Below, piece by piece: positions 452 through 27,094 of a DNA stretch of 48,170 nt (position 1 is its first letter; each line of letters opens with the position of its first letter). The position numbers and the translations under genes are program-made. The DNA comes from Roseospira visakhapatnamensis (GTDB lineage: Bacteria; Pseudomonadota; Alphaproteobacteria; Rhodospirillales; Rhodospirillaceae), in assembly GCF_014197915.1 (NCBI RefSeq), contig NZ_JACIGK010000032.1:1-48170 (forward strand), written 5' to 3'. Under the pieces are notes generated by a model, which saw only the letters and a list, made by a program, of their open reading frames with translations, made no database searches and was not told where the DNA came from.

Positions 452-2035
452 TTACACCGCCTCGCGCAGCAACGTGAGCTGGCGCGAGCGGCTGCCCCCC
501 TCCTCGTCCACCAGCGGAATCGGGTAGTCCCCGGTGAAATAGTGGTCCAGGAAGGCCGGGGCCATCGGATCGCGGCCGGGCTCGCCCATCGCCCGGTACA
601 GCCCGTCCAGGGTCACGAAGGCCAGGCTGTCCACGTCGATGTAGCCGGCCATGCCCTCGATACTCATGTGGCTGGCCACCAGATCCGCCTTTTCCGGCGT
701 GTCGATGCCGTAGAAACACGGGAAGCGGATGGGCGGGCTGGCCACCCGCATGTGCACCTCGGCGGCCCCGGCCTCGCGCACCATGCGCACGATCTTCACC
801 GAGGTGGTTCCGCGCACGATGGAATCGTCGATCAGCACCACCCGCTTGCCCTTCAACACCGCCATGTTGGCGTTGTGCTTCAGGCGCACCCCCAGGTGAC
901 GGATCTCATTGGTGGGCTCGATGAACGTCCGGCCCACATAGTGATTGCGGATGATGCCCAGTTCGAAGGGCAGTCCCGCGCCCTCGGCGAAGCCCATGGC
1001 CGCCGGCACCCCGGAATCGGGCACCGGCACCACCACGTCCGCGTCCACCGGCGCCTCCCGGGCCAGTTCGGCGCCGATCGCCTTGCGCACCTGATAGACG
1101 CTCCGGCCCCCCACCACACTGTCCGGGCGGGCGAAATAGACGTACTCGAACAGGCAGGGCCGGGGCCGTTCCCGGCGGAACGGCCGCACGCTCTCCAGGC
1201 CCTCCTCGGTGATGACCACCACCTCGCCCGGCTCCACGTCGCGCACCAGTTCGGCGCCGATGATGTCAAAGGCGCAGGACTCGGACGCCAGGATGTAACT
1301 GTCGCCCAGCCGCCCCAGCACCAGCGGCCGCACGCCGAAGGGATCGCGCACCCCGATCAGCTTGCGCTGAGTCAACAGCACCAGGGAGTAGGCGCCCTCG
1401 ACCTGCAACAGCGCCTCCACCAGCCGGTCCACCACGCGGCCCTTCGCGCGGGCCATCAGGTGGAGGATGACCTCGGTATCCGTGGTGGACTGGAAAATAC
1501 TCCCCTGGCCGATCAACTCCCGGCGCAAGGTCATGGCATTGGTCAGGTTGCCGTTGTGGGCGACGGCGACCCCCCCCAAGTCCAGTTCCGCGAACAAGGG
1601 CTGGATGTTGCGCGGGTTGGGCGCGCCCGTGGTGGAATAGCGGTTGTGGCCGATGGCCGCGTTGCCCACCAGCCCGTCCATGACCCGCCGTTTGGCGAAC
1701 ACGTCGGCCACCTGGCCCAGCCCCCGGTGCACGTTGAAGCGCTCGCCGTCGTGGGCGACGAGGCCGGTGGCCTCCTGGCCGCGATGCTGGAGGGCATGAA
1801 GACCGAGCGCGGTGTGCGCGGCGGCATCGGACGTGCCGAGGATGCCGAAGACCGCGCATTCTTCTCGCAGGCGGTCCGAGCCCGGGTCGAGGGCATAAAC
1901 AGGCGCGGGCACAGGCGCGGACGCCGGCGACGGGGCCCCCTGCCCGCGCCTCCCCCTGACTGGAGGCCGATGGGAGACCGCGGGGGTCGGCGCGACGGGA
2001 CCCGCGACGGGATCCGGGCCTGTGTCTGGACTCAT
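452..2035 (-). CDS. purF: Amidophosphoribosyltransferase (purine synthesis step 1)
   Basis: PurF makes 5-phosphoribosylamine from PRPP and glutamine, the committed step of de novo purine synthesis, in the cytoplasm. The 527-residue product has the Ntn glutaminase motif EECAVFGI with the nucleophilic Cys at residue 60, then the ALGLHALQHRGQEATG block. Near the C-terminus is the PRPP loop VVLIDDSIVRGTTS. The ATG at 2035 was chosen because it overlaps the cvpA stop (ATGA), as is usual in this operon. This leaves about 59 residues before the catalytic Cys, rich in Pro and Ala, which is longer than the short propeptide typical of PurF. There is no other Met before the Cys. The rest is a normal PurF. 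Confidence 0.97.
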   Translation of the reverse strand: MSPDTGPDPVAGPVAPTPAVSHRPPVRGRRGQGAPSPASAPVPAPVYALDPGSDRLREECAVFGILGTSDAAAHTALGLHALQHRGQEATGLVAHDGERFNVHRGLGQVADVFAKRRVMDGLVGNAAIGHNRYSTTGAPNPRNIQPLFAELDLGGVAVAHNGNLTNAMTLRRELIGQGSIFQSTTDTEVILHLMARAKGRVVDRLVEALLQVEGAYSLVLLTQRKLIGVRDPFGVRPLVLGRLGDSYILASESCAFDIIGAELVRDVEPGEVVVITEEGLESVRPFRRERPRPCLFEYVYFARPDSVVGGRSVYQVRKAIGAELAREAPVDADVVVPVPDSGVPAAMGFAEGAGLPFELGIIRNHYVGRTFIEPTNEIRHLGVRLKHNANMAVLKGKRVVLIDDSIVRGTTSVKIVRMVREAGAAEVHMRVASPPIRFPCFYGIDTPEKADLVASHMSIEGMAGYIDVDSLAFVTLDGLYRAMGEPGRDPMAPAFLDHYFTGDYPIPLVDEEGGSRSRQLTLLREAV

Positions 2036-2718
2036 TGAGTGCTCTCGATCAGTCGGTTCATCTCCTGGCGCTCGTCGCGCTGGTAGCCCTCGACCCCCGG
2101 ACGCGGTGGTGCCTGGGGGCGCGGCTGGCGCAGGTCCTCGAACGCCCGCTGGGCATCCAGGGCATTGTTGACCCCGGCGGCGGCCTCGCCTGCCTGCCGG
2201 CGCAGGCGCTCCTGCTCGGCCAGCAACGCGGGGGGCAGCATGGCGTACAAGGCCTCCTGGCCATCCCGGATCATGGGCATGCTGCGCGCCTCCCGCACCC
2301 AACGCGGCTGGGTCTCGGGCGGTACCAGCCAGGAGGCGGACACATAGATCACGATCACCACCAGGGCGCCCCGGGCCAGGCCGAACAGGAACCCAAGCGA
2401 GCGATCCAGGCTGTTGAGCGCACTGTCCTGCACCCGGCGGGCGATCAGGGTGGTGATGATCGAGAACACCACCAGCGCCACCAGGAACAGCGCCACGGCG
2501 GCCGTCAGGTCGGCCGCCCACTCTATGGGAATGTAGGGCCGCACGTAGGGCTGCACGAGGGGCAGGCCGTAGACGGCCACCAGGATGGCGCCGATCCAGG
2601 CGCCAATGCCCATGACCTCGTGCACGAACCCGCGAAAGAACGCCAGGATCGCCGAGATCAGCAGGATCAGCAGCACGCCCATGTCCACGGGGTTGATCGG
2701 CCAGCTATCCATGCTCAT
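2032..2718 (-). CDS. cvpA: CvpA family inner-membrane protein
   Basis: This 228-residue protein begins MSMDSWPINPVDMGVLLIL and has four hydrophobic helices in its first 130 residues, the CvpA topology. The C-terminal third is soluble, charged and Gln/Arg-rich, ending with STQ. CvpA was named for colicin V production; later work links the family to envelope stress and bile resistance. Its pairing with purF is widely conserved. A good ribosome site (GAGAGGA) precedes the ATG at 2718, which overlaps the end of radA. A second ATG two codons later is possible. The stop overlaps the purF start, so radA, cvpA and purF look co-transcribed. Confidence 0.9.
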   Translation of the reverse strand: MSMDSWPINPVDMGVLLILLISAILAFFRGFVHEVMGIGAWIGAILVAVYGLPLVQPYVRPYIPIEWAADLTAAVALFLVALVVFSIITTLIARRVQDSALNSLDRSLGFLFGLARGALVVIVIYVSASWLVPPETQPRWVREARSMPMIRDGQEALYAMLPPALLAEQERLRRQAGEAAAGVNNALDAQRAFEDLRQPRPQAPPRPGVEGYQRDERQEMNRLIESTQ

Positions 2719-4653: not shown

Positions 4654-4685
4654 GTTAGACAGTCCCAAAAAGGGCGTTAGACACT
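4654..4685. repeat. Left integrase arm-type sites (two direct copies)
   Basis: GTTAGACAGT (4654-4663) and GTTAGACACT (4676-4685) are near-identical direct repeats 22 bp apart, next to attL. The second overlaps the integrase stop codon. The same 10-mer recurs at the right end of the prophage (47804-47813 as a variant, 47860-47869 inverted). Position and recurrence at both ends fit binding sites for the N-terminal domain of the integrase. Confidence 0.65.
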
Positions 4686-5774
4686 CGCTGGTCCGTTCCC
4701 GTTTTTTTCGTTCCGCACATTTTGTTCCGACGTCGCCGCGTCAAGGCAGTCAATAGCCAGCCGTGCCGCACGACGCTGGGCACTATATTTCATCGCCATC
4801 TGCATGGTGGCATGTCCGGTGATTGCGGCGACCCCTTCCCAGTCCCCCAGTAGCTCGTACACCCTCGTAGCGGCCGTGTAGCGCAACCCGTGTGTCGTGA
4901 CGTCGCTCACTTTGGCTGCCTTGTACGAGGCCGCCATGCGGTGCCGGAAGCGATCCACGGTAATGGTCCCGAGAATCCGGGACTCCCGGTCCGGCTCGCC
5001 ACCGCTCCGCGTTTGGCGCCAAGCGTCCAGGGCCGCGGCCAAGTCGCGGCTCACCGGCAAGCCGAGATGAGCTCCGGTCTTCTGCTGGTGCACTCGCACG
5101 GCGCCCCCCTCGACATGCCCCCAGGTCGTGGCCAGCACATCGCCGCCCCGCTGCGCGGTGTTCAACGCCAGTTCGAACGCGATCCGCTCCCAGGACCCGA
5201 GCGGCCAGCGCGCTCGGAAAAGAGCCACTTCACTTTCTTCCCAGGGCCGATGGCCGTCACCGCTCTTGAACCGTCTCGGGCGCGCGGCCGGATTAACGGT
5301 CACTCCGAAGGTGCTGGACCGATCGACGGCGTAGCTGAACAACAGCCTCAGGATCTGCAGGATGTAGTTCGCCTTTCGGGGGGTATTTGCATACTTGTCG
5401 CGCAAGGCTAACACGAACTCGCGCGGCATGGTCTTGATCGGCAAGTGGCCGTGGTTCTGCTTCAACAGGTCCAGGTAGCCGGTGTAGTCCTTCCGCGTCT
5501 TCGGGGCTTTTGATTTGAAATCGGCCGACTCCCGGTAGTGATCGATCAGGTGGGCCAGGGTGCCGACGGCGGCCGGCCGGCGCTCGGTTCGGCCCTGATC
5601 CTCGAAGGTCTGGTGGATGCGCTGGTAAGCCGCGACAAACGCCGCGTCGCCCGGCACCACGGGCTTGCCGTCGACATCCGTGATCCGCACTCGCCGTTTG
5701 CCGCGCCGGTAGTAGGCGTAGACCTTCCCGCGCGAAGTGTAGACCTGGAGGTATGCGAGGGGGACAGGAGTCAT
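4677..5774 (-). CDS. int: Tyrosine-type phage integrase
   Basis: This 365-residue integrase catalyses recombination between phage and bacterial att sites. The catalytic set is readable: R209 (NTAQRGGDV), K232 (VHQQKTGAH), H295-x-x-R298 (TTHGLRYTAA), H321 (ITGHATMQM) and the nucleophile Y330 (MKYSAQR). The first 60 residues (YAYYRRGKRRVRITD) look like an arm-binding domain, followed by a SAM-like core-binding domain at about 70-165. It ends 57 bp from the tRNA, the usual arrangement. The ATG at 5774 overlaps the stop of the upstream HTH gene (ATGA), so it is the last gene of the leftward early operon. Confidence 0.96.
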   Translation of the reverse strand: MTPVPLAYLQVYTSRGKVYAYYRRGKRRVRITDVDGKPVVPGDAAFVAAYQRIHQTFEDQGRTERRPAAVGTLAHLIDHYRESADFKSKAPKTRKDYTGYLDLLKQNHGHLPIKTMPREFVLALRDKYANTPRKANYILQILRLLFSYAVDRSSTFGVTVNPAARPRRFKSGDGHRPWEESEVALFRARWPLGSWERIAFELALNTAQRGGDVLATTWGHVEGGAVRVHQQKTGAHLGLPVSRDLAAALDAWRQTRSGGEPDRESRILGTITVDRFRHRMAASYKAAKVSDVTTHGLRYTAATRVYELLGDWEGVAAITGHATMQMAMKYSAQRRAARLAIDCLDAATSEQNVRNEKNGNGPASV

Positions 5775-7545: not shown

Positions 7546-8157
7546 TCAGGCGGGTACCGGCGCATCGGCCGGCAACAGGCTCCGCAGCATGGTCAGCCAG
7601 TGATCGGCGGCCTGGTACCAGGGCTCGGGCCGCAGGATGGTGGTGTCCGGTGGCGGCAGTTCCTGGACCCAGTCCACCCCGCAGGGGACCAGCAGGTCGC
7701 GGCGCTCGGTGGCCAGCGCCACCATGTCCGCCTGATGCACGGCGCGCAGGGTCTCCGCCGAGGGCATCGGCACGCCGGCTGCGATCCACAACACCGCGTC
7801 CGTCGTGTCGGCGATCCGGTTCAGCCACGCCTGCACGTCGGCCGGGGCGCTGCGCTTCATGGGCGCGGGCCAATCCACGCCCATGAGTGCCTCGTGTGCA
7901 TCGTGCAACAGGCCATACAGCCGCAGGTCCGGGGGCAGCAGGGCCGCCACATGGCAACAGTGCTGCGCCACGCTATAGGGTGCGGCCTGGGTGGCGCCGC
8001 CGAACCGGGCGATCTTGCCCAGGCCGTCGGCGATATCGCGCCAACACACGTCCTCGACGCGCGGCGCCAACGGCCACCAGCGCCGCCCGCTGGCCAGTTG
8101 CAACCACTCGCCAGCGCGGCGGGACGCAGAAAAAGACGAGAGGGCGAGGCAGGTCAT
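7546..8157 (-). CDS. HD-superfamily phosphohydrolase (YfdR-like)
   Basis: The 203-residue protein shows the phage YfdR/YfbR-type HD fold: DIADGLGKIARFGG, then YSVAQHCCHVAALLP (H66), LLHDAHEALMG (H85-D86) and HQADMVALATERRD (D144). These are the metal-binding H...HD...D residues. E. coli YfdR and relatives are nucleotide phosphohydrolases, so it may trim dNMP/dNTP pools during infection. The ATG at 8157 was chosen because conservation begins soon after. It lies next to a DUF2303 (YfdQ-like) gene, as in many prophages. Confidence 0.85.
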   Translation of the reverse strand: MTCLALSSFSASRRAGEWLQLASGRRWWPLAPRVEDVCWRDIADGLGKIARFGGATQAAPYSVAQHCCHVAALLPPDLRLYGLLHDAHEALMGVDWPAPMKRSAPADVQAWLNRIADTTDAVLWIAAGVPMPSAETLRAVHQADMVALATERRDLLVPCGVDWVQELPPPDTTILRPEPWYQAADHWLTMLRSLLPADAPVPA

Positions 8158-8219
8158 ACGGGCGCTCCGGAGGCGGTGCCGTCGCGGCTCAGATGGCGGA
8201 ACCGCGACGGCAAGAGGGG

Positions 8220-9161
8220 CTAAAGGGACTCGGGTTCCTCGGGCATGCCGGCGTAGACGGGCACGCCGGTGTCCCCGGCGATGCGGGTGGCGGCGTCCTG
8301 GAAGGCGTCGTCGAACACCTCCTTCACCCGCTGCAGGTCGAACCACCAGCTCAGGCCCTCGCGGCTCTTGCGGTAGCGCAGGCGGGCGACCATCCGGTAG
8401 CGCGTGCCCTGGTCGAACACCGGGATGGCGAGGCAGAACAGCGAGGGGATGGTCAGCTTCTGGCCGGCGCCGTCGGTGTGCTCCTCTTCGAAGACGATGG
8501 AGCCCTCGCCGCTGTTGGTGTTGATGACCGCGCCGACCCGACTGGTCTCGTGAACCACCAGCCCCCGGGCCAGTTCCATCATGCGTTCCGGCCCGGCGAA
8601 GGTGCCGTCCAGCAGTCGCGCCAGCTCGTGTAAGCGCTTGTCGCTCTCGGTCTCCGGGACGGCGGTCAGATCGGGCGCCGGCAGGACGTCGAGGATGCGA
8701 TCCTCGACAAAGGCCGCGAAAGAGCCCTGGCCCATCTTCTCGCCACTGGCCCGGCTCCACAGCTTCCACTCGCGCGACAGCGGGAACTCGTGAGTCGCAC
8801 GCCACCCGCGCCAGTTCGGCGTGGCATCCATGCCGGTCGCGGTGCCGGTGCCGCTCATGTAGTCGTAGACCGCCACGGCGCGGGCCGGATCGCGGGAGAT
8901 GAACACCGCCGTCTCGGTGGTGTCGTGAGCCTTGATGTGCTCGATCAGGCTGTCGAGGGTGATGTGCTCGCTGCGCCCGCTGATCCGCTCCGGCCGGGCG
9001 CGGTATTCGTCCAGCAACGGCTTCAAGCTCTCCAGGCGCTTGCCCTGGGGAACGACGGCGATCGGCTTGTCGGTGAGGTCCTCGGCCAGGATCTCCAGGC
9101 CGACATGGTTGACCATGAAATCGGCAAGGGCGGCGGTTTCAGTCTGGGTTTCGGTGGACAT
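8220..9161 (-). CDS. DUF2303 family phage protein (YfdQ-like)
   Basis: The 313-residue protein matches the DUF2303 pattern: VPQGKRLESLKPLLDEYRA near the N-terminus, SLIEHIKAHDTTETAVFIS, then WRATHEFPLSREWKLW and GQGSFAAFVEDRI. The C-terminal half is beta-rich (VGAVINTNSGEGSIVFEEEH). The family occurs in the early operons of temperate phages beside YfdR-type HD proteins; its biochemical role is not established. It follows a 120-residue gene by 12 bp and belongs to the leftward early operon. Confidence 0.85.
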   Translation of the reverse strand: MSTETQTETAALADFMVNHVGLEILAEDLTDKPIAVVPQGKRLESLKPLLDEYRARPERISGRSEHITLDSLIEHIKAHDTTETAVFISRDPARAVAVYDYMSGTGTATGMDATPNWRGWRATHEFPLSREWKLWSRASGEKMGQGSFAAFVEDRILDVLPAPDLTAVPETESDKRLHELARLLDGTFAGPERMMELARGLVVHETSRVGAVINTNSGEGSIVFEEEHTDGAGQKLTIPSLFCLAIPVFDQGTRYRMVARLRYRKSREGLSWWFDLQRVKEVFDDAFQDAATRIAGDTGVPVYAGMPEEPESL

Positions 9162-17997: not shown

Positions 17998-19286
17998 CAA
18001 TCACCCCCAGCGACAGCCAAGCAGCCGCGATCCGCCAGATCAAGGCGTGGTTCGAACACCGCACCGACGAACAGCAGGTGTTCCGCCTGTTCGGCTACGC
18101 CGGCACCGGCAAGTCGACGGTGTTGAAGTTCGCGCTCGATGACCTGGGGCTTGATGCCGACGACGCCGAGGACGTCGTCACGGCCACCTTCACCGGCAAG
18201 GCCGCCATGGTGCTGCGCCGGAAGGGCACGCCGGCACAAACCATCCACAGCCTGATCTACTCCGTTCAGGAAGCGCCGGAAGAAGAGATCGCCGAGGCCG
18301 AGAAGGAGCTGGCGCAGATGGAGCGGGAGGTCCTGGCGCTGGTTGGCTGGGCGCGCACGGAGGCGCAGTCGCAGTGCGAGGCCCGCCGGCAGGCCATCAA
18401 GGAATTGCGCCGCCCGCAGTTTCGGCTGAACCCAGACTCCGCCGCCGCGCACGCCAAGCTGATCGTGCTCGACGAAGTCTCCATGGTGGGCGGGGACATG
18501 GCCAAGGACCTGCTGTCCTACGAACGGCCCATCCTGGTGCTGGGCGATCCCGGTCAGCTTCCGCCGATCAAGGGCGAAGGCGCGTTCGTCGACGCCACGC
18601 CCGACGTCATGCTGACCGAGGTGCACCGGCAGGCGGCCGAAAGCGCGGTGATCCGGCTCGCCACTTGGGCCCGCCAGGGCCGGCCGATTCCCATGGGCCT
18701 GCACGATCCCTTGGTCGCCAAGATGCGTTTCGGCGACCTGTCGCCGGAGATGTGCCTGAATGCGGACCAAGTCATCTGCGGCCGCAACGACACCCGCATC
18801 ATGCTGAACAACGGCATCCGCCGGGTCGCGGGTCACACCAGCCTGCTGCCGGACCCGGGCGAGAAGATCATCTGCCTGAAGAACAGCAAGGACATGGGCG
18901 TGGTCAACGGCATGTTCCTCGAGCTGGACGAAGCGATCGACGACGCCGAGCTGATCTTCAAGGCCCGCCTGATCACCGAGGACGGCGCCGTCGTCGGCAC
19001 GCCCAACAGGGACGGCGAGGCATGGGTGCCCGTCTACAAGGGCCCGTTCCTCGACCACGTCCAGATGGACAAGGACCGCAACGGCCGCGACTGGAAGCTG
19101 CTGCGCAAGGTCAAGCCGCTGGAGATGGTCTTCGGCTACGCCATCACCTGCCATAAGGCGCAGGGCTCCGGCTGGCGCAACGTCATCGTCTGGGATGACG
19201 GCCTTGGCCGGTCCGACGCCGACCGCCGGCGCTGGCTGTACACCGCCATCACGCGCGCCGAGGAAGGGCTGGTGCTGCTGTCATGA
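17994..19286 (+). CDS. RecD/Dda-like SF1B DNA helicase
   Basis: The 430-residue protein has Walker A LFGYAGTGKSTVL (about 32-44), motif Ia-like TATFTGKAAMVLRRKG, motif II LIVLDEVSMVG, motif III LVLGDPGQLPP and the C-terminal motifs VFGYAITCHKAQGSGW and LYTAITRAEEGL. This is the standard order for RecD2/Dda helicases (5'-3'). A charged coiled-coil insert (EIAEAEKELAQMEREV) follows motif Ia. It is coupled to the methyltransferase gene by ATGA and precedes the primase, so it probably serves phage replication. Confidence 0.93.
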   Translation: MTITPSDSQAAAIRQIKAWFEHRTDEQQVFRLFGYAGTGKSTVLKFALDDLGLDADDAEDVVTATFTGKAAMVLRRKGTPAQTIHSLIYSVQEAPEEEIAEAEKELAQMEREVLALVGWARTEAQSQCEARRQAIKELRRPQFRLNPDSAAAHAKLIVLDEVSMVGGDMAKDLLSYERPILVLGDPGQLPPIKGEGAFVDATPDVMLTEVHRQAAESAVIRLATWARQGRPIPMGLHDPLVAKMRFGDLSPEMCLNADQVICGRNDTRIMLNNGIRRVAGHTSLLPDPGEKIICLKNSKDMGVVNGMFLELDEAIDDAELIFKARLITEDGAVVGTPNRDGEAWVPVYKGPFLDHVQMDKDRNGRDWKLLRKVKPLEMVFGYAITCHKAQGSGWRNVIVWDDGLGRSDADRRRWLYTAITRAEEGLVLLS

Positions 19287-21826
19287 CCATCGACCTGAAT
19301 GACACGGCACCGCCCCCGCCTGCCCGCGTCAACCTGCGTGAGGTGAAGGACCGCTTGCAGGCGTCGGCCCACGACTGGGTGCCGATGCTGTTCCCGGCTG
19401 GCCGGTTGACCCCGGACCGGCGCGCCCTGCGGCTTGCCAACCTGGGCGGCGATGCACCGCGCGGTCACGGGTCGGCGGAAATCGGGCTGGCCGGGCGCTG
19501 GGCCGGGTACGGCCGCGATTGGGCCACAGACGATCGTGCTGACCCTATCGAGCTCATCGGCTGGGCGACGGGCCTTTGCAACGGTGACCTGTACACCGAA
19601 GCCGCGCGGGTGGCCGGGCTGACGCCGGACGCGCCCAAACCACGCAAGGCCGCGCCACCGCCGCCACCGGCCCGCGACAAGACGGCCGACGCCCGGCGCG
19701 TAGTCGAGAGCTGCCAGCCGCTCGGCGGCACCTTGGCCGAGGCCTACCTGAAGGCACGCGGGCTGACTGATCCCGGGGCGCCCGACCTGCTGTTCACGCC
19801 CGACATGACCGACATGGCCAGCCGCACCGGCTGGCCGGGCATGGTCGGCGTGATCCGCGATGGCGACGGACAGCCGACCGGCGGCATCCATCGGACCTTC
19901 CTGCGGCCCGACGGTGCCGGCAAGGCGTCGCCGGGAAAGAAGATGCTGGGCCCGGCCGGCGGCGGGCACGTCCGCCTGTTTCCGGTTCCCGAGGATGGCC
20001 ACCTTGGCATCGCCGAAGGCATCGAGACCGCCCTGTCCGCGCACCGGCTGTTCGGCCTCCCCACCTGGGCGGGCCTGTCGGCGGAGGGTGTGCGGCGGTT
20101 CCAGTGGCCCGGCGGGGTGACGCGCCTCACCATCTTTGCCGACGCCGGTGAGGCAGGACAGAAGGCGGCGGCCGACCTTGCCGCGCGGCTGAACGATGCC
20201 GGGATCGGCCACACCATCGTCTCGCCGCTGCACGGCGACGACTTCAACGACGATCTGCGCCACGGTGCCACGGCGGACGACTACGCACCGAAGACGTCCG
20301 ATGCGGCCGGACCGTCGGTGCAGGTGGACGACGGCACCACCCTGACCGCCGAGGCGGCGGCCCTGACCAAGGGCGATTTCCCCGGCGCCATCTCCATCGT
20401 CGACCGCATGGTGCGCGCCCGGCTGGAAGGCCTGGAAGAGGAAGGCATCCTGACCGCGCTCAAGGGCGCGACGGGCCTGTCCATGGGCGGGTTGCGCCGG
20501 CAGGTCACCACCATGCGCCGTCGGTTCAACGCCTCCGCCGGCGAGACCACGGCGCGCATCAACAGCACCTGGGCGCATCGCCTCCGCGTCGACGCCACCG
20601 GCCTGCCTGAGCGCAACGAGGCCAACGTCATGGTCGCGCTGGAGCACGATCCTGCGTTCGGCGGGGCCCTGTTCTTCGATGCCTTCGCCGAGAAGATCCT
20701 GGTCCACAGGTCGCTGCCGTGGTCCGGGCATGACGAAGAGTTCCCCCGGCAGTGGGCCGACGCCGACGACATCCACATGGCCGTCTGGCTGCAGCGGCGG
20801 GATATCAACGTGACGCCGATCGTCACCGCCCGCGCTGTCAACGCTTACGCTCGCGGCCGCGCCGTGCACCCCGTGCGCGACTACCTCGACAGCCTGGCCT
20901 GGGACGGCACGCCGCGCCTGGACAACTGGCTGTCCACCTATGTCGGAGCCCAGGATACCCGCCTGACCCGCGCGTTCGCCGCACGCTGGATGATCTCCGC
21001 CGTGGCCCGCATTCGGCGGCCCGGCTGCAAGGCCGACCACATGTTGGTGCTGGAGGGCCCGCAGGGCCTGAAGAAGTCGACCGCCTTCAAGACGCTGTGC
21101 GGCGCTGCGTGGTTCACCGACGAACTGGCCGAGGTAGGGTCGAAGGACGCCGCGATCCAGATGCAGGGCGCGTGGGTGGTCGAGATGGCCGAACTGGACG
21201 CCATGTCCAAGGCCGAGACCGGCCGCATCAAGGCGTTCCTGACCCGCACCACCGACCGCTACCGACCGCCCTACGGACGGCACACCGTCGAGGTCCCCCG
21301 CCAGGCGGTCCTGTGCGGCACCGTGAACCACGAGACGTGGTTGAAAGACGAGACCGGCGGCCGGCGCTTCTGGCCAGTCAAAGCCGGCGTGACCGGCCCG
21401 ATCGACCTCGACAGCCTCGCGCAGGACCGCGACCAGCTGTGGGCCGAGGCCGCCGCCCGCTTCGCCGCCGGCGAACCCTGGTGGCTGGACGAGCAGGACC
21501 TGGTCACCGATGCCTGCGCCGCCCAGGAAGCGAAGCGCGTCACGGACGCCTGGGAAGAGAAGATCGACCGCTGGCTGACCCATAAAGTTGAACGGGTCCA
21601 GGTCGCCTACGAGCAGTGGGAGACCCAGGAAGTGCCGCGTGCCCAGCCGCTGACGGACGTGTCCGTAGGCGAAATCTTACAAGGAGCGCTGGGCATCGAG
21701 CCGGGTCGGTGGGGCAAACCCGAACAGATGCGCGTGGGGTCTTACTTCACGGCGCGGGGCTGGACTCGGTATCAGCAGCGGGTTCTTGGGGGGCCGCGCG
21801 AGTGGCGGTACCGGCACCCGGGATAA
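19283..21826 (+). CDS. Primase-VapE (SF3-like) helicase fusion
   Basis: The 847-residue protein joins two parts. The N-terminal 360 residues are a DUF7146/Toprim-type primase: YLKARGLTDPG, GGIHRTFLRPDG and the Toprim motif LGIAEGIETALSA (about 241-253), then FADAGEAGQKAA. The C-terminal part is a VapE-like helicase: DYLDSLAWDGTPRLDNW, Walker A LEGPQGLKKSTAF (about 589-601), WVVEMAELDAM (Walker B), FLTRTTDRYRPPYGR and NHETWLKDETGGRRFW. It should prime and unwind at the phage origin. The iteron-like array lies 0.7 kb downstream. Confidence 0.9.
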   Translation: MTIDLNDTAPPPPARVNLREVKDRLQASAHDWVPMLFPAGRLTPDRRALRLANLGGDAPRGHGSAEIGLAGRWAGYGRDWATDDRADPIELIGWATGLCNGDLYTEAARVAGLTPDAPKPRKAAPPPPPARDKTADARRVVESCQPLGGTLAEAYLKARGLTDPGAPDLLFTPDMTDMASRTGWPGMVGVIRDGDGQPTGGIHRTFLRPDGAGKASPGKKMLGPAGGGHVRLFPVPEDGHLGIAEGIETALSAHRLFGLPTWAGLSAEGVRRFQWPGGVTRLTIFADAGEAGQKAAADLAARLNDAGIGHTIVSPLHGDDFNDDLRHGATADDYAPKTSDAAGPSVQVDDGTTLTAEAAALTKGDFPGAISIVDRMVRARLEGLEEEGILTALKGATGLSMGGLRRQVTTMRRRFNASAGETTARINSTWAHRLRVDATGLPERNEANVMVALEHDPAFGGALFFDAFAEKILVHRSLPWSGHDEEFPRQWADADDIHMAVWLQRRDINVTPIVTARAVNAYARGRAVHPVRDYLDSLAWDGTPRLDNWLSTYVGAQDTRLTRAFAARWMISAVARIRRPGCKADHMLVLEGPQGLKKSTAFKTLCGAAWFTDELAEVGSKDAAIQMQGAWVVEMAELDAMSKAETGRIKAFLTRTTDRYRPPYGRHTVEVPRQAVLCGTVNHETWLKDETGGRRFWPVKAGVTGPIDLDSLAQDRDQLWAEAAARFAAGEPWWLDEQDLVTDACAAQEAKRVTDAWEEKIDRWLTHKVERVQVAYEQWETQEVPRAQPLTDVSVGEILQGALGIEPGRWGKPEQMRVGSYFTARGWTRYQQRVLGGPREWRYRHPG

Positions 21827-21851: not shown

Positions 21852-22418
21852 TCATTTCTTTCGCGGAAATATAGGATTCGACATAGCGAAATCCGTCATA
21901 ATAGGTGGAAGACTGGCCCTTTGCGTTTCTATTAATTTTTCTTCCCACCTCCGACGCAATGTCATAAGATAACAATATATTCTTGGGTTTTTTTCTCTCC
22001 TTTGTTCTATAAAATTTCTAAATATCTTAACGTGTTGAATCAACGTGCTTGCCACCATATCAAAGCAAACTTCATCGCTTGCGACATCGGATTCTATTGC
22101 TAGAGCCATGCTCTCCCAATGAGCCAGCAATGTAAGAATTGAGACGTGTAGTTTTGGGTGACTTTCCATCTTCTTTTCAATCTCACCCATTGGAATAGCT
22201 TCTTTAATAGAAAACATTGAACCAAACACTTCCTCTACCTGCATTCTAGCATCACGTAGATGTTCGTTAGAGTAAAGGGAGTAGTTCAAGGCTTTATTTC
22301 TAATAGTCAAGTTATAATTCGCGCGCATTTGCTGCCTGATCATGCGAGCAGACACTAATACGCTCGTTAGAATTGCGATCGGGCCAAGAAGTCGCAAGAT
22401 CAGGTCAAGAAAGTCCAC
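21852..22418 (-). CDS. DUF4760-like membrane-anchored protein (moron candidate)
   Basis: This 188-residue protein starts with GTG at 22418, 6 bases after the strong ribosome site AAAGGAGG. Residues 1-26 are a transmembrane helix (LILRLLGPIAILTSVLVSAR), followed by a long helical cytoplasmic domain with NLTIRNKALNYSLYSNEHL. The layout and 'RNKAL' region resemble DUF4760 proteins. It is far richer in A/T than its neighbours and is transcribed against the early operon, both typical of cargo expressed in the lysogen. The role is unknown; superinfection exclusion or defence is the usual guess for such genes. Confidence 0.7.
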   Translation of the reverse strand: MDFLDLILRLLGPIAILTSVLVSARMIRQQMRANYNLTIRNKALNYSLYSNEHLRDARMQVEEVFGSMFSIKEAIPMGEIEKKMESHPKLHVSILTLLAHWESMALAIESDVASDEVCFDMVASTLIQHVKIFRNFIEQRREKNPRIYCYLMTLRRRWEEKLIETQRASLPPIMTDFAMSNPIFPRKK

Positions 22419-22549
22419 AGGGGCCTCCTTTCCTCGTGTGAGAGCAGTATGCTGCCAAGGATCACCATGTTCCGCACCTTAAAGTGAGTGGGCATGATAG
22501 GCGCTTCCTTGCGCGTGCCTCAACCTGCCTGTCCTCAAAGGGCTGGTAT

Positions 22550-22899
22550 TGTCACCACCACCGTTTTTGAAGTGATGACAGCCTAGCAGACAGCTGCATA
22601 TGACGATGAGGTGGTGACAACCACAGCTGGATCACCGCGGCCGAGGCGCGTTTGTCACCACCTGTCACCACTTCGCGCACGAGGTGGTGACAGAAGTGAT
22701 GACAGAATTTCTTTTGCAATATCAAGGCTGTCACCACTGTCACCACTGTCACCACTGAAATGGTGAAAACTGGTGGGCGATGAAAAAATACGGCGGATCG
22801 GTAGAGCTTTCATGGGCGTCGATTACCTGAAGTAGGCGTGTGTTTTTCCATCCACAAATGATGGGGACCAAGTGGTGACAGTGGTGACAGTGGTGACAG
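22550..22899. repeat. Iteron-like array, candidate replication origin
   Basis: The 9-mer TGTCACCAC or its complement GTGGTGACA occurs 11 times, plus two GTGATGACA variants (22572-22580, 22696-22704). Forward copies start at 22550, 22653, 22663, 22729, 22738 and 22747; complement copies at 22611, 22684, 22872, 22881 and 22890. The two tandem triplets (22728-22756 and 22871-22899) form a perfect 29-bp inverted repeat with 114 bp between. An AT-rich stretch (22701-22725) lies inside. It fills most of the 579-bp gene-free gap between the DUF4760-like and RuvC-like genes, near the primase-helicase. Confidence 0.7.
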
Positions 22900-22997
22900 G
22901 CCGTTCCGGCACGACTCGCGCTTGACCCGCGACTCGGGTGACGGCACACTCGTTCCCGCCAAAGCCAGGGGCCCGTCTCACAGCAGCGAGCCCCGAT

Positions 22998-23471
22998 ATG
23001 TCCGACACCTTTCTGGCCCTCGACCTGGGCACCAAGACCGGCTGGGCTGTTTCCGCCCATGGCCGTGTCGCCGCTAGCGGCACCCAACCGTTCAACACCG
23101 GCCGCTTCGACGGTGGCGGCATGCGTTATCTGCGTTTCCGTCACTGGCTGGACGAGGTGCTCGTCCGCGTCGGTGGAGAACTGGCGGCTGTCCACTTCGA
23201 GGAAGTCCGGCGCCACGCCGCGACCGACGCCGCCCATGTCTATGGTGGCCTGCTGGCCACCCTGACCGCTTGGTGCGAGGAACGGCGCATCCCTTATCAG
23301 GGTGTGCCTGTGGGCACCTGGAAGCGCCATATCGTCGGCAAGGGCAACGCCTCCAAGGATAAAGTAAAGGCCGAGGTTGACCGGCGCGGGTTTGCCCCCT
23401 CGGACGACAACGAGGCCGATGCCATCGCCATTGCCCTCTGGGTCGCCGAGACCGACGGGGGTGCGCGATGA
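22998..23471 (+). CDS. RuvC-like Holliday-junction resolvase
   Basis: The 157-residue protein has the RNase H-fold resolvase pattern: FLALDLGTKTGWAVSA (D9), VHFEEVRRH (E68/E69), KGNASKDKVKAEVDRRG and the C-terminal acidic site SDDNEADAIAIALW (D137/D141). These match phage RuvC-type resolvases, which cut four-way junctions before packaging. ATG at 22998 was chosen since the catalytic D lies nine residues in. The stop overlaps the start of the DUF6362 gene. Confidence 0.85.
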   Translation: MSDTFLALDLGTKTGWAVSAHGRVAASGTQPFNTGRFDGGGMRYLRFRHWLDEVLVRVGGELAAVHFEEVRRHAATDAAHVYGGLLATLTAWCEERRIPYQGVPVGTWKRHIVGKGNASKDKVKAEVDRRGFAPSDDNEADAIAIALWVAETDGGAR

Positions 23472-24444: not shown

Positions 24445-25023
24445 ATGGATCTGGTGACCAAGGCCGAATTTGCCCGCCGACACGGGGTGTCCAAGCCCGC
24501 CGTTCAGAAGTGGCAGGCCCAAGGCTACCTCATCATGAGCGACGGAAAAGTCGACGTCGCGGCGACTGACGCCAAACTGCGGGACGCTCGTAAGGGGCGC
24601 TTCAGGAGCGCGGCCTCCCAAGTAAATCCGGGTGTGAACAGGGCCGTTGACGCCTCGACGCCGAGTGTCGAGGACGCAGCCGCCACGATCGCGGCCTTCC
24701 TGCAGCGGCTCCTGGATGGGGAGTACGAGACCGAGGCGGAGGCTGATCGGGTCAAGGCGAACGCTCTGGCGGGCCTGCGAGCCTTGGAGTTTCAGGAAAA
24801 GGCGGGGTCGCTGGTGAACCTGGAGATGGCCGAGCGGACCCTGATCGACACATCGCGGGCCGCGCGGGACGCCTGGCTCAACTGGCCGTCGCGGGTAGGG
24901 CCCTTGGCCGCGGCTGAATTGGGGGTTGAGGCCGATAAGGCAACCGAGGTCCTGACGGCCCATGTCCACAAGCACCTCGAAGACCTGGCAAAAACAGGGG
25001 CAGACGCAGAAGGCCAAAGCTGA
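24445..25023 (+). CDS. Terminase small subunit (Nu1-like)
   Basis: The 192-residue protein starts with a winged-HTH of the Nu1 type, TKAEFARRHGVSKPAVQKWQ, that would recognise packaging-site DNA. A helical region with SLVNLEMAERTLIDTSRAAR follows, where residues contact the large subunit. The gene overlaps the large terminase start by 62 bp. Its partner is a GpA-type large subunit, so packaging is lambda-like. Confidence 0.88.
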   Translation: MDLVTKAEFARRHGVSKPAVQKWQAQGYLIMSDGKVDVAATDAKLRDARKGRFRSAASQVNPGVNRAVDASTPSVEDAAATIAAFLQRLLDGEYETEAEADRVKANALAGLRALEFQEKAGSLVNLEMAERTLIDTSRAARDAWLNWPSRVGPLAAAELGVEADKATEVLTAHVHKHLEDLAKTGADAEGQS

Positions 25024-27094
25024 ACGACTGCGCCAAGCGGCGTGGCGCGGCTGGGCCCCGCCGGCTCGGATCAGCGTGCCGACCTGGGCGGACGAATACC
25101 GACGACTGGCGAAGGAAGCCGGCAACCTGTCGGGCCGCTGGCACACCGACACGGTGGAGGTCGCACGCGGGCCGATGCTGGCCGTGACGGAACCTGGGGT
25201 GCATGTCATCACGACGATGTGCTGCACCCAGCTCATGAAGACGGCGCTGATCGAGAACATCTTCGGCTTCTTCGCGCACCTGGACCCGGCGCCGATGCTG
25301 CTGGTCCAGCCCAAGGAGGATGCGGCCCAAGCGTTCAGCAAGGAACGCATCGACAAGATGGTGAAGGCGACGCCGGCCCTGAGCGGGCTGGTGGGGACGG
25401 GCAAGAGCCGATCTTCGGACGACACGCTGCTGTACAAGGCATTCCCGGGCGGTTTCCTGTCCCTGGTCGGCGCGGGGAGCCCGGACAACCTCGCCCGGCG
25501 GCCGGTGCGGATCACGCTGTTCGACGAGGTGGACAAGTACCCCGTCACCAAGGAGGGGGACCCGATCGCGCTCGGGGAAGAGCGCACCGCGACATTCGGC
25601 GCCAACTGGCTGTCGGTCCGGGCCTGCTCGCCGACGGTCGAGGACGAGAGCCGTATTGCCCGGAGCTACGCCGCCAGCGACCAACGCCGGGCCTCGGTGG
25701 CTTGCCCACACTGCGGGCACAGGCAGTTCCTGGACTTCTTCAAGCACGTCGAGTGGGAGAAGGACGAGTCTGGGAACCATCAGCCGAAGACGGCGCGGAT
25801 CTACTGCGAGTCCTGCGGCTGCGAGTGGTCGGAAGGCGACCGCCTGCACGCTCTGCAAACGACGCGCTGGCACCAGACGCGGCCGTTCGAGTGTTGTGGT
25901 CGACGGCACAGCCCATTGGACGATTACGCCCGGGCATGGCGCGACGGTGCTGCCGACCCGGTTGGCGCGGTCTGGGCCTGGTGGGAAGGCGACCGGTGGG
26001 CCGTCCATCGGGCGCGGTGTCCAGACTGTGGCGCTTGGACCGTAGACAACGAGCACGCCGGGTTCCAGGCCAGCAAGTTGTATTCGCCATGGTCAAAGGA
26101 CCGGCCGCAGGACATTGCCAAGAAGTGGCTCGACGCCCAGGGCGACGACGACGCCAAGCAGACGTGGTGGAACACGCAGCTCGGGCTGCCCTACCGGCCC
26201 CGGGTCGGGCGCGACATCAAACCTCATGCGCTGATGGAGCGACGCGAGGTCTGGCCCGGCGAGGTGCCAGCCGGGGTGGCGCTGCTGACGTCAGGTGTGG
26301 ACACGCAGCCCGACCGGCTGGAGGTGGAAACGGTCGGCTGGGGGCGCAGCGAGGAATCGTGGTCGGTCGAGTTCCACGTCATTGAGGGCGACCCGAACCA
26401 GCCGGAGGTGTGGCAGCGGCTCGACGAGTATCTGCTACGCCCACGGCTCCGGGCCGATGGCCGCCCGTTCACGATTGCGGCGTGCTGCATCGACACGGGC
26501 GGCTGGAACACCCAGGCCGTCTACAATTTCTGCCGCGGGAAGCTGCCCCGTCGAATTTGGGCGATCAAGGGCGCCTCGGAGACCAGCGGCCAGCGGGCCC
26601 CGGTGTGGCCGACGGCGCGGACGTCGAAGAAGCGCAGCAAGGATTACCGGCCCGTCATCATCGGGACGAACGCCGCCAAGGACCGGATCTCGGACTGCCT
26701 GGCGATCGAGACGCCCGGACCTGGATACATGCACTTCCCGGCCGAAAGGGACGCTGGCTACTTCACGCAGCTGACCAGCGAGCGGCTGGCACTGCGGAAG
26801 CGCAACGGCCGGACGTACCGGATCTGGGAGCCGAAAAAGGGCATGGCGCACGAGGCGCTGGATTGCCGGGTGTACGCCTATGCCGCGCTCTGGGGGTTGA
26901 TTGTGACCGACCGGAAGGACCTGGACCGCGAGGCGCTGAAGGTCGGCGCGATTGACGATGTGCAGGTGGTGCGCATCGGCACGCCGGAAGCCCAACGCCT
27001 GGAGGCTGAGAAAGAACCGGTGATCGAGGCCAAGCCGGTTGAGAAGCCGAAGCGCAAGCCGCGTCGCGTGGCGCGCTCGAACTGGATGGGGTGA
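24962..27094 (+). CDS. Terminase large subunit (GpA family)
   Basis: This 710-residue motor-nuclease translocates DNA into the prohead. The N-terminal ATPase has PARISVPTWADEYRRLAKEA, a Walker A-like TMCCTQLMKTALIENI (about 81-96), DNLARRPVRITLFDEVDKYP (Walker B) and a Cys-rich insert (CPHCGHRQ ... CESCGCEW). The C-terminal nuclease includes LLTSGVDTQPDRLEVETVGW. All are typical of lambda GpA. The ATG at 24962 lies within terS; conserved sequence begins about 20 residues in, which supports this start. The C-terminal tail is Lys/Arg-rich. Confidence 0.95.
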   Translation: MSTSTSKTWQKQGQTQKAKAERLRQAAWRGWAPPARISVPTWADEYRRLAKEAGNLSGRWHTDTVEVARGPMLAVTEPGVHVITTMCCTQLMKTALIENIFGFFAHLDPAPMLLVQPKEDAAQAFSKERIDKMVKATPALSGLVGTGKSRSSDDTLLYKAFPGGFLSLVGAGSPDNLARRPVRITLFDEVDKYPVTKEGDPIALGEERTATFGANWLSVRACSPTVEDESRIARSYAASDQRRASVACPHCGHRQFLDFFKHVEWEKDESGNHQPKTARIYCESCGCEWSEGDRLHALQTTRWHQTRPFECCGRRHSPLDDYARAWRDGAADPVGAVWAWWEGDRWAVHRARCPDCGAWTVDNEHAGFQASKLYSPWSKDRPQDIAKKWLDAQGDDDAKQTWWNTQLGLPYRPRVGRDIKPHALMERREVWPGEVPAGVALLTSGVDTQPDRLEVETVGWGRSEESWSVEFHVIEGDPNQPEVWQRLDEYLLRPRLRADGRPFTIAACCIDTGGWNTQAVYNFCRGKLPRRIWAIKGASETSGQRAPVWPTARTSKKRSKDYRPVIIGTNAAKDRISDCLAIETPGPGYMHFPAERDAGYFTQLTSERLALRKRNGRTYRIWEPKKGMAHEALDCRVYAYAALWGLIVTDRKDLDREALKVGAIDDVQVVRIGTPEAQRLEAEKEPVIEAKPVEKPKRKPRRVARSNWMG

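Follow-up and report, generated by a model that had tools for sequence, protein, structure and literature searches.

PICIs are satellites without capsid and tail genes of their own. In classical iteron plasmids the direct repeats adjoin the initiator gene, all point the same way and are spaced by a helical turn. Phage P4 has two separate sites, ori and crr, and the type I iteron GGTGAACA; its alpha protein fuses a Toprim primase to a helicase and ends in an origin-binding domain. PICI origins lie just 3' of rep and have an A+T-rich region with a set of iterons on either side, and rep together with ori supports plasmid maintenance (PMC6092414, in excerpt). The SaPI Rep protein recognizes a downstream iteron origin via its C-terminal domain, and the isolated C terminus of Cch2 binds repeats at the putative origin (PMC7581432, in excerpt). 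In PLE, the RepA_N initiator covaries with its origin (excerpts of PMC8263062 and PMC7145576).

The gene content of the DNA analyzed here, a stretch of 48,170 bases (the window), is that of a temperate phage. The window encodes an integrase, a Sak4-like annealing protein, a Cas4-like nuclease, a Dda-like helicase, a VapE primase-helicase, a RuvC and a terminase, together with portal, head protease, major head protein, tape measure, tail and endolysin/lysis genes. We considered whether the window might be a PICI and rejected this, because of the terminase, structural and lysis genes just listed. Among the matches listed in the literature, mostly non-subscription papers represented by titles and abstract openings, no description of VapE-linked iteron origins in such phages was found.

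Comparison of the locus with the described systems reveals likenesses and differences to each. As in SCCmec, where the C-terminal domain of Cch2 on its own binds short repeats located just 3' of the gene, a repeat array lies downstream of the putative initiator gene, but Cch2 has three 5-nt iterons, in contrast to 13 boxes on both strands here (PMC7581432, in excerpt). In PLE the DNA-binding domain of the initiator likewise changes in step with the origin, and elements exchange it; however, RepA is not a predicted helicase or primase, the iterons are ~30 bp, and whole domains swap there, whereas here single residues track single base features (excerpts of PMC8263062 and PMC7145576). With SaPIs and PICIs the locus shares an A+T-rich stretch bordered by two sets of short iterons, 3' of an initiator-helicase gene (PMC6092414, in excerpt), and an initiator with a C-terminal DNA-binding domain, reported there and predicted here (PMC7581432, in excerpt). 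The position immediately 3' of the putative initiator gene recurs, though in the window the distance is 0.7 kb, after the DUF4760 gene; two iteron sets flanking an A+T-rich region are seen across loci and more weakly in the window (rank 0.058, see below); and the relationship of the initiator to SaPI Rep/Pri-Rep is seen in matches to 7pds and 7ola. Indeed, the nearest solved structure to the window VapE is PriRep1 (7pds). In contrast to the SaPI/PICI systems, the element is a phage and carries genes for integrase, terminase, capsid, tail and lysis, and its N-terminal primase is Toprim/DUF7146, while the primases of SaPIbov1 and SaPI5 belong to the AEP family (PMC7581432, in excerpt). In addition, the array here is tied to ruvC, and a residue-to-base rule is seen. 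The array adjoins its putative initiator gene as in classical iteron plasmids, but we rejected such an origin, as the boxes lie on both strands, the commonest same-strand step is 9 bp and the putative initiator is itself a helicase. The P4 iteron resembles GGTGACA, and P4 may be a further parallel.

The box array and the genes around it

The 9-mer TGTCACCAC forms one array in the window, with 11 exact copies, all within 22550-22898 (349 bp), and 0 elsewhere, compared with a chance expectation for the whole window of 0.38 on average and 3 at most (100 dinucleotide shuffles). Two near-exact boxes, TGTCATCAC, lie on the minus strand at 22572-22580 and 22696-22704, with 1 mismatch each (Table 1). 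The original prediction had reported 11 exact and two near-exact boxes within 350 bp and a 29-bp perfect inverted repeat formed by two triplets. Both are confirmed, the boxes far above chance and the repeat at 22728-22756 and 22871-22899 (arms of 29 nt, 100% complementary, 114 nt between them). The array had also been placed 0.7 kb after the primase-helicase and directly before RuvC, which holds with the refinement that the gap is occupied by the minus-strand DUF4760 gene, so that the array lies between this gene and the RuvC-like gene. The 9-bp spacing and two directions that had been called unusual are likewise both present, yet 9 bp is the commonest spacing of neighboring same-strand boxes in the whole family.

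Table 1. Coordinates of the array, its boxes and neighboring genes in the window
Feature	Position	Strand	Remarks
Integrase	4677-5774	-	
VapE-type primase-helicase (DUF7146 + Toprim + VapE-like helicase + C-terminal winged helix)	19283..21826	+	Putative origin-binding self-loading initiator helicase
Predicted C-terminal winged helix-turn-helix of VapE, ~aa 794-847	21662..21823	+	Proposed box reader
Codon of K812, predicted start of recognition helix	21716..21718	+	K with G/A, R with T; 140/144
Codon of G819, predicted within recognition helix	21737..21739	+	Candidate secondary specificity position; 134/144
Codon of Q831, predicted first wing strand	21773..21775	+	Q with TGACA, R/K with GACA/ACA; 144/144
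DUF4760 gene	21852..22418	-	Pfam PF15956, 1.6e-21; G+C 0.404
Array, left part	22550..22704	both	7 boxes, strand given for TGTCACCAC: 22550+, 22572- (1 mismatch), 22611-, 22653+, 22663+, 22684-, 22696- (1 mismatch)
Left inner cluster	22729..22755	+	3 tandem TGTCACCAC boxes, 9-bp step
Centre between inner clusters	22757..22870	.	Possible melting (unwinding) region; G+C 0.482
Right inner cluster	22872..22898	-	3 tandem boxes
RuvC-like resolvase gene	22938..23471	+	PHROG 159, 6.9e-30; directly 3' of array
Terminase genes	24445-27094		

The G+C content of the array center compares with 0.68 for the whole window and 0.567 for the neighboring array DNA, and its lowest 30-bp G+C ranks at 0.058 among stretches of the window, so that the center is mildly A+T-rich. 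Two open reading frames of at least 80 aa enter the array (22749-23330 and 22823-23122), both on the minus strand and antisense to ruvC. GC skew does not turn at the array, and a simple scan of 22400-23050 for sigma-70 promoters, the one promoter type covered, found no promoter-like site towards ruvC and one on the opposite strand. The true start of ruvC may be the in-frame ATG at 22998 rather than the GTG at 22938.

The VapE protein matches Pfam PF05272 (4.3e-83), Toprim_3 and DUF7146, and the PHROG helicase/primase family. The DUF4760 gene that follows it is probably recent cargo between VapE and the array, since its G+C is 0.40 in a window of 0.68 and tblastn found it in 0 of the 159 other VapE loci. 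With DUF4760 confined to the window's own locus (1 of 160), the suggestion that the array binds a regulator of both DUF4760 and RuvC is unsupported. Other phages likewise have room at this spot, between vapE and the array. Two further genes were observed toward the integrase end, namely a glutamine amidotransferase-phosphoribosyltransferase fusion (phrog_26846, GATase + PRTase) at 452-2518 (-), left of the integrase, and a protein at 7549-8805 (-), one domain of which resembles deoxynucleoside monophosphate phosphatases of phages (phrog_318).

Recurrence and layout of arrays in related loci

Related loci were taken from viral contigs (the best 80 of 195, among which L130 is the window) and from genomes (the best 80 of 104), two partly overlapping sets. 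Their VapE proteins are 51-57% identical to that of the window, the exceptions being L131 (84%), L210 (78%) and the window's own copy. With an array defined as any 8-mer present in at least 5 copies within 450 bp, after vapE, 134 of the 160 VapE loci passed, window included, compared with 2 of 160 Markov surrogates (one per locus). Two of the 134, L235 and L261, were judged by eye to hold other repeats and were left out of the box classes, and in L167 the true array was the second-best match and was reassigned by hand. Exact TGTCACCAC occurs in the 1.5 kb after vapE in 11 of the 154 loci that have at least 300 bp there; the related box families are GTGGTGACA (that of the window), GTTGGTGAC, GTGGGACA, GTTGGGAC and GTTGGAC, plus rarer ones. 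The array often starts 30-100 bp from the vapE stop codon and otherwise lies up to 5.5 kb away. It is tied more tightly to ruvC. Of the 127 array loci with a RuvC match on the plus strand, 121 have the array no more than 600 bp ahead of that match (the other 7 of the 134 had no such match).

A scan of viral contigs for two boxes no more than 12 nt apart gave at least 120 stretches, with unrelated repeats mixed in; one, L041, has the same box positions as the window. In tblastn searches with the window proteins, 11 of 19 picked scan loci had VapE/RuvC matches beside the array (L018, L020, L026, L030, L038, L043 (weak), L051, L074, L084, L110 and L121 (weak, three boxes)), and the remaining 8, some of them short, had no such match. 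A DNA similarity search of phage and plasmid records with the array itself gave nothing useful (best E 0.4), because the boxes diverge. The window's own type looks rare, as the exact box pair was found in 0 of 59 other genomes searched and a profile of the VapE tail matched its own genome only among 385 genomes of the class (no more than 12 candidates scored per genome). Within the genus, 2 of 6 genomes carry VapE, that of the window and G005, whose two copies (L300, the same DNA as L210, and L301) had no convincing array in the short stretch examined.

The VapE of L131, though 84% identical to that of the window, is accompanied by a quite different box, ACCCGGACCA; the differences between the two proteins are concentrated around aa 350-400 and over the final 70 residues. 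Several phages also contain a second, different array (5-6 copies of an 8-mer) ~2.1-4.1 kb after vapE, with GGTTCGCA in L132, L179 and L195, and GGTTTCCA in L246, L249, L261 and L286.

The arrays have a recurring layout. Of 46 dereplicated loci, 37 have an opposed pair of inner boxes separated by 70-140 bp; the separation measures 82-99 bp in 32 of them and 106-134 bp in the other 5. An inner gap of at least 70 bp is present in 41 dereplicated loci and absent from 5, and in 29 of the 41 the boxes on either side of the largest gap follow the strand order --|++. A reference layout derived from the GTGGGACA class scored above the 99% limit of the null in 26 of 45 loci. The window's own layout is an atypical variant, scoring 5 (null mean 5.0) and below that limit; if one weak extra site is disregarded, the strands of its last ten boxes run --++---|+++, an order shared with L131. 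As mirror symmetry was not significant (median 0.6 versus 0.5 for shuffled strands, 95% limit 0.73), we describe two opposed clusters and not a perfect dyad. In the 38 loci with a center, the mean G+C difference from the locus is -0.17 and the median rank 0.0175, a comparison with random stretches that are mostly coding. A fairer comparison is with the rest of the non-box DNA in each array, against which the center has a median G+C of 0.474 versus 0.539 and is lower in 27 of 38 loci (p 0.01).

Arrays also accompany more distant VapE proteins, which are 32-43% identical over part of the protein. From the 25 of 1037 phage records and 25 of 1603 plasmid records with a match, nine distant records were picked by hand, and 7 of the 9 pass the array threshold after vapE. 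These include one Komagataeibacter and two Roseomonas plasmids. Pseudomonas phages vB_Pae_U5 and LPPA36 carry the box GTGGGACA with residues K and R, as predicted by the rules set out below. Marinobacter phage PS3 (box GGGGTGAC, R at 831) misfits the rule for residue 831, and the Microcystis plasmid p2-NIES88 (L297; 3117 bp, two annotated genes; box AGGTAGGG, R812) misfits that for residue 812, with uncertain alignment in both cases. Gluconobacter pGO128 (L296) has a weak array of 4 copies, and Acidovorax phage Aval has no array after vapE. L297 and L296 are very small plasmids in which VapE is the sole obvious replication gene among those annotated and is followed by the array (weak in L296). 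Because both have VapE and an array with no other obvious replication gene annotated, this suggests that VapE may act as a plasmid initiator.

Covariation of the box with the VapE C terminus

To relate boxes to proteins, we used 106 loci with a box class and with VapE, RuvC, Dda helicase and Cas4, reduced to 46 by dereplication at 10% VapE distance, of which 37 fall in box classes with at least 2 members; VapE proteins below 700 aa were left out (156 of 160 kept). The nearest neighbor in VapE aa 800-847 had the right box class in 32 of these 37 loci, compared with 13 for VapE 1-720, 19 or 20 for whole VapE, 12 for the Dda helicase, 11 for the Cas4 nuclease and 5 for RuvC. VapE 770-847 gave 30 correct, whereas labels shuffled 2000 times gave a mean of 6.2 and a maximum of 17. 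The Spearman rank correlation of distances fails to single out the tail (0.27 for aa 781-840, 0.34, the highest, for aa 331-390, and 0.23 for both RuvC and the Dda helicase).

A search over the columns of seven proteins with no more than 30% gaps located the match at single residues. The best column for the base before TGG is VapE 812, with R/T in 26 loci, K/G or A in 16 and 2 exceptions (n = 44). For the bases after TGG it is VapE 831, with Q/TGACA in 16, R or K with GACA or ACA in 27 and 0 exceptions (n = 43). Among all classified loci, close relatives included, both rules recur at the frequencies listed in Table 1. In the first set they hold in 120 of 123 (rule 812) and 124 of 124 loci (rule 831), and the three exceptions to rule 812 follow residue 819 instead. 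Odd boxes were left out of one or both rules (L131, L246, classes GTGGGGCC and GTTGGGCA, and, for rule 812, xTGGTGACA). On a FastTree tree of VapE 1-780, the box feature linked to 831 changed at least 11 times and that linked to 812 at least 23 times. Independent pairs on supported branches changed in the same direction in 10 cases for 831 (0 other, 0 without difference) and, of 18 for 812, usually in ~15 (0 other, 3 without difference); the 46-row tree gives the wing rule only 4 pairs, all 4 the same (p 0.125). Collectively, these data suggest that a few residues in the VapE tail may determine which repeat sequence is used.

The AlphaFold2 model (mean pLDDT 80 for aa 430-847 and 85 for the tail) predicts helices and a two-stranded wing for the tail, a winged helix-turn-helix, in which 812 would be the first residue of the recognition helix, 819 would lie inside it and 831 would belong to the first of the two wing strands. 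Among solved structures, the one closest to aa 430-847 is PriRep1 with dsDNA (7pds; 2.1e-63 by sequence, 4.9e-28 by fold), which we take to be a staphylococcal island protein, and 7ola, titled as a primase-helicase in SaPI5, gave a fold match of 7.5e-5. The tail alone had no fold match at E 0.001 and weak matches only, several of which we presume to be winged-helix proteins. It had no Pfam match at 0.001 either, and its sequence makes the box type predictable.

Later loci gave similar results. Of 92 further loci, 91 have VapE and 28 are new in the last 300 bp of vapE; they are mostly near relatives of the first set (nearest VapE 1-780 distance 0.03-0.29), and their box-class patterns were slightly looser. 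Rule 812 was right in 21 of 22 (the miss being L322) and rule 831 in 21 of 21. Three of the 22 (L321, L333 and L392) lie on contigs already in the earlier box scan, there without VapE tails. The nearest-neighbor class was right in 15 of 22 with VapE 1-780 and in 19 of 22 with VapE 790-847. Four later loci had no array at the 5-copy threshold and 2 had an unrelated repeat. L347 and L367 had no array of the expected box, and L367 contains five one-mismatch GTTGGGAC sites, contrary to rule 812. We also predicted the class from the tail for L261 and for the 26 loci of the first set that lacked an array; 21 of these 27 were usable (6 were not). The predicted class was best or tied best in 11 of the 21 (L133, L145, L146, L147, L174, L205, L213, L216, L253, L263 and L272), wrong in L259 and L283 and equivocal in L261; 7 of the 21 stretches have no RuvC match.

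A candidate replication origin and its alternatives

We consider it likely that the array is a SaPI/PICI-like replication origin of a temperate phage, which the phage's own VapE primase-helicase reads through its winged-helix tail. The sequence evidence for this is the recurrence of the arrays, their position, the covariation of box and tail and the predicted fold. The original prediction had linked an origin to the primase-helicase, and this is supported because arrays recur in relatives and the box tracks the C terminus of that protein. It had also made itself dependent on prophages with the same replication genes carrying the array; arrays do recur there, mostly with other boxes. Its further suggestion of a new origin type is too strong, because PICIs are described with a like layout, in which an AT-rich stretch just downstream of rep has an iteron set on each side (PMC6092414, in excerpt).

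According to the mechanism we propose, VapE subunits would physically bind the 9-bp-spaced boxes via their C-terminal winged helix, and the opposed inner clusters would position two helicase assemblies, presumably hexamers, flanking the A+T-richer center. These would melt the center and self-load in both directions for a bidirectional start, with priming by VapE's own Toprim domain. Residues 812 and 819 of the recognition helix and 831 of the wing would set which box is read; if so, boxes and tail would therefore change together between lineages.

Other readings account for parts of this evidence. The array could be an operator through which VapE or another phage protein controls a promoter of ruvC and the following genes, with the origin elsewhere, as its place close before RuvC, kept even with vapE kilobases away, would suggest. 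However, the boxes track the VapE tail and not RuvC, every exact box of the window lies within one array, the scan for sigma-70 promoters found no site facing ruvC, and the two small plasmids carry vapE and an array (one weak) with no ruvC in their annotation, an incomplete gene table. We regard this reading as unlikely. A packaging (pac/cos) or partition site bound by the terminase small subunit or a partition protein would fit with the terminase genes downstream, but the box type follows VapE, and the window TerS has a match in 5 of 160 loci, a count limited by locus length, versus arrays in 134; such a site seems scarcely credible.

The closeness of array and vapE stop codon in many loci raises the question of linkage, in which VapE tail and array would be exchanged together by recombination as neighbors, with no contact. 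Yet RuvC, about equally close on the other side, predicts the box in few loci, and the match lies at single residues of helix and wing, across independent pairs on supported branches. In addition, all 49 loci with an array 1-5.5 kb from vapE obey each rule, close relatives included, and simple hitch-hiking is thereby weakened. We therefore hold linkage alone to be very improbable.

If the array is an origin read by VapE, as we favor, origins of SaPI/PICI-like kind would extend to a temperate phage that has its full set of genes, to isolated phages and to plasmids. The relatives provide a natural series in which initiator and origin would have changed together many times, so that a change in specificity of a multi-box origin is directly testable. 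The broader proposal, to which we give even weight for and against, is a widespread and rapidly switching origin-recognition code, in which three winged-helix residues of self-loading VapE helicases would set a dozen boxes at once. It would have been re-tuned at least 11 times (wing) and at least 23 times (helix) among related phages with mostly alphaproteobacterial hosts, perhaps in escape from incompatibility with co-resident prophages, satellites or origin-directed nucleases, and the same kind of origin, with other boxes, would occur in gammaproteobacterial phages and small plasmids.

Two 6-mers recur in the array centers, GGAAAA in 20 of 37 and CCTATA in 16 of 37, compared with no more than 12 for any 6-mer in 50 surrogate sets. 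A melting or priming element is possible for either.
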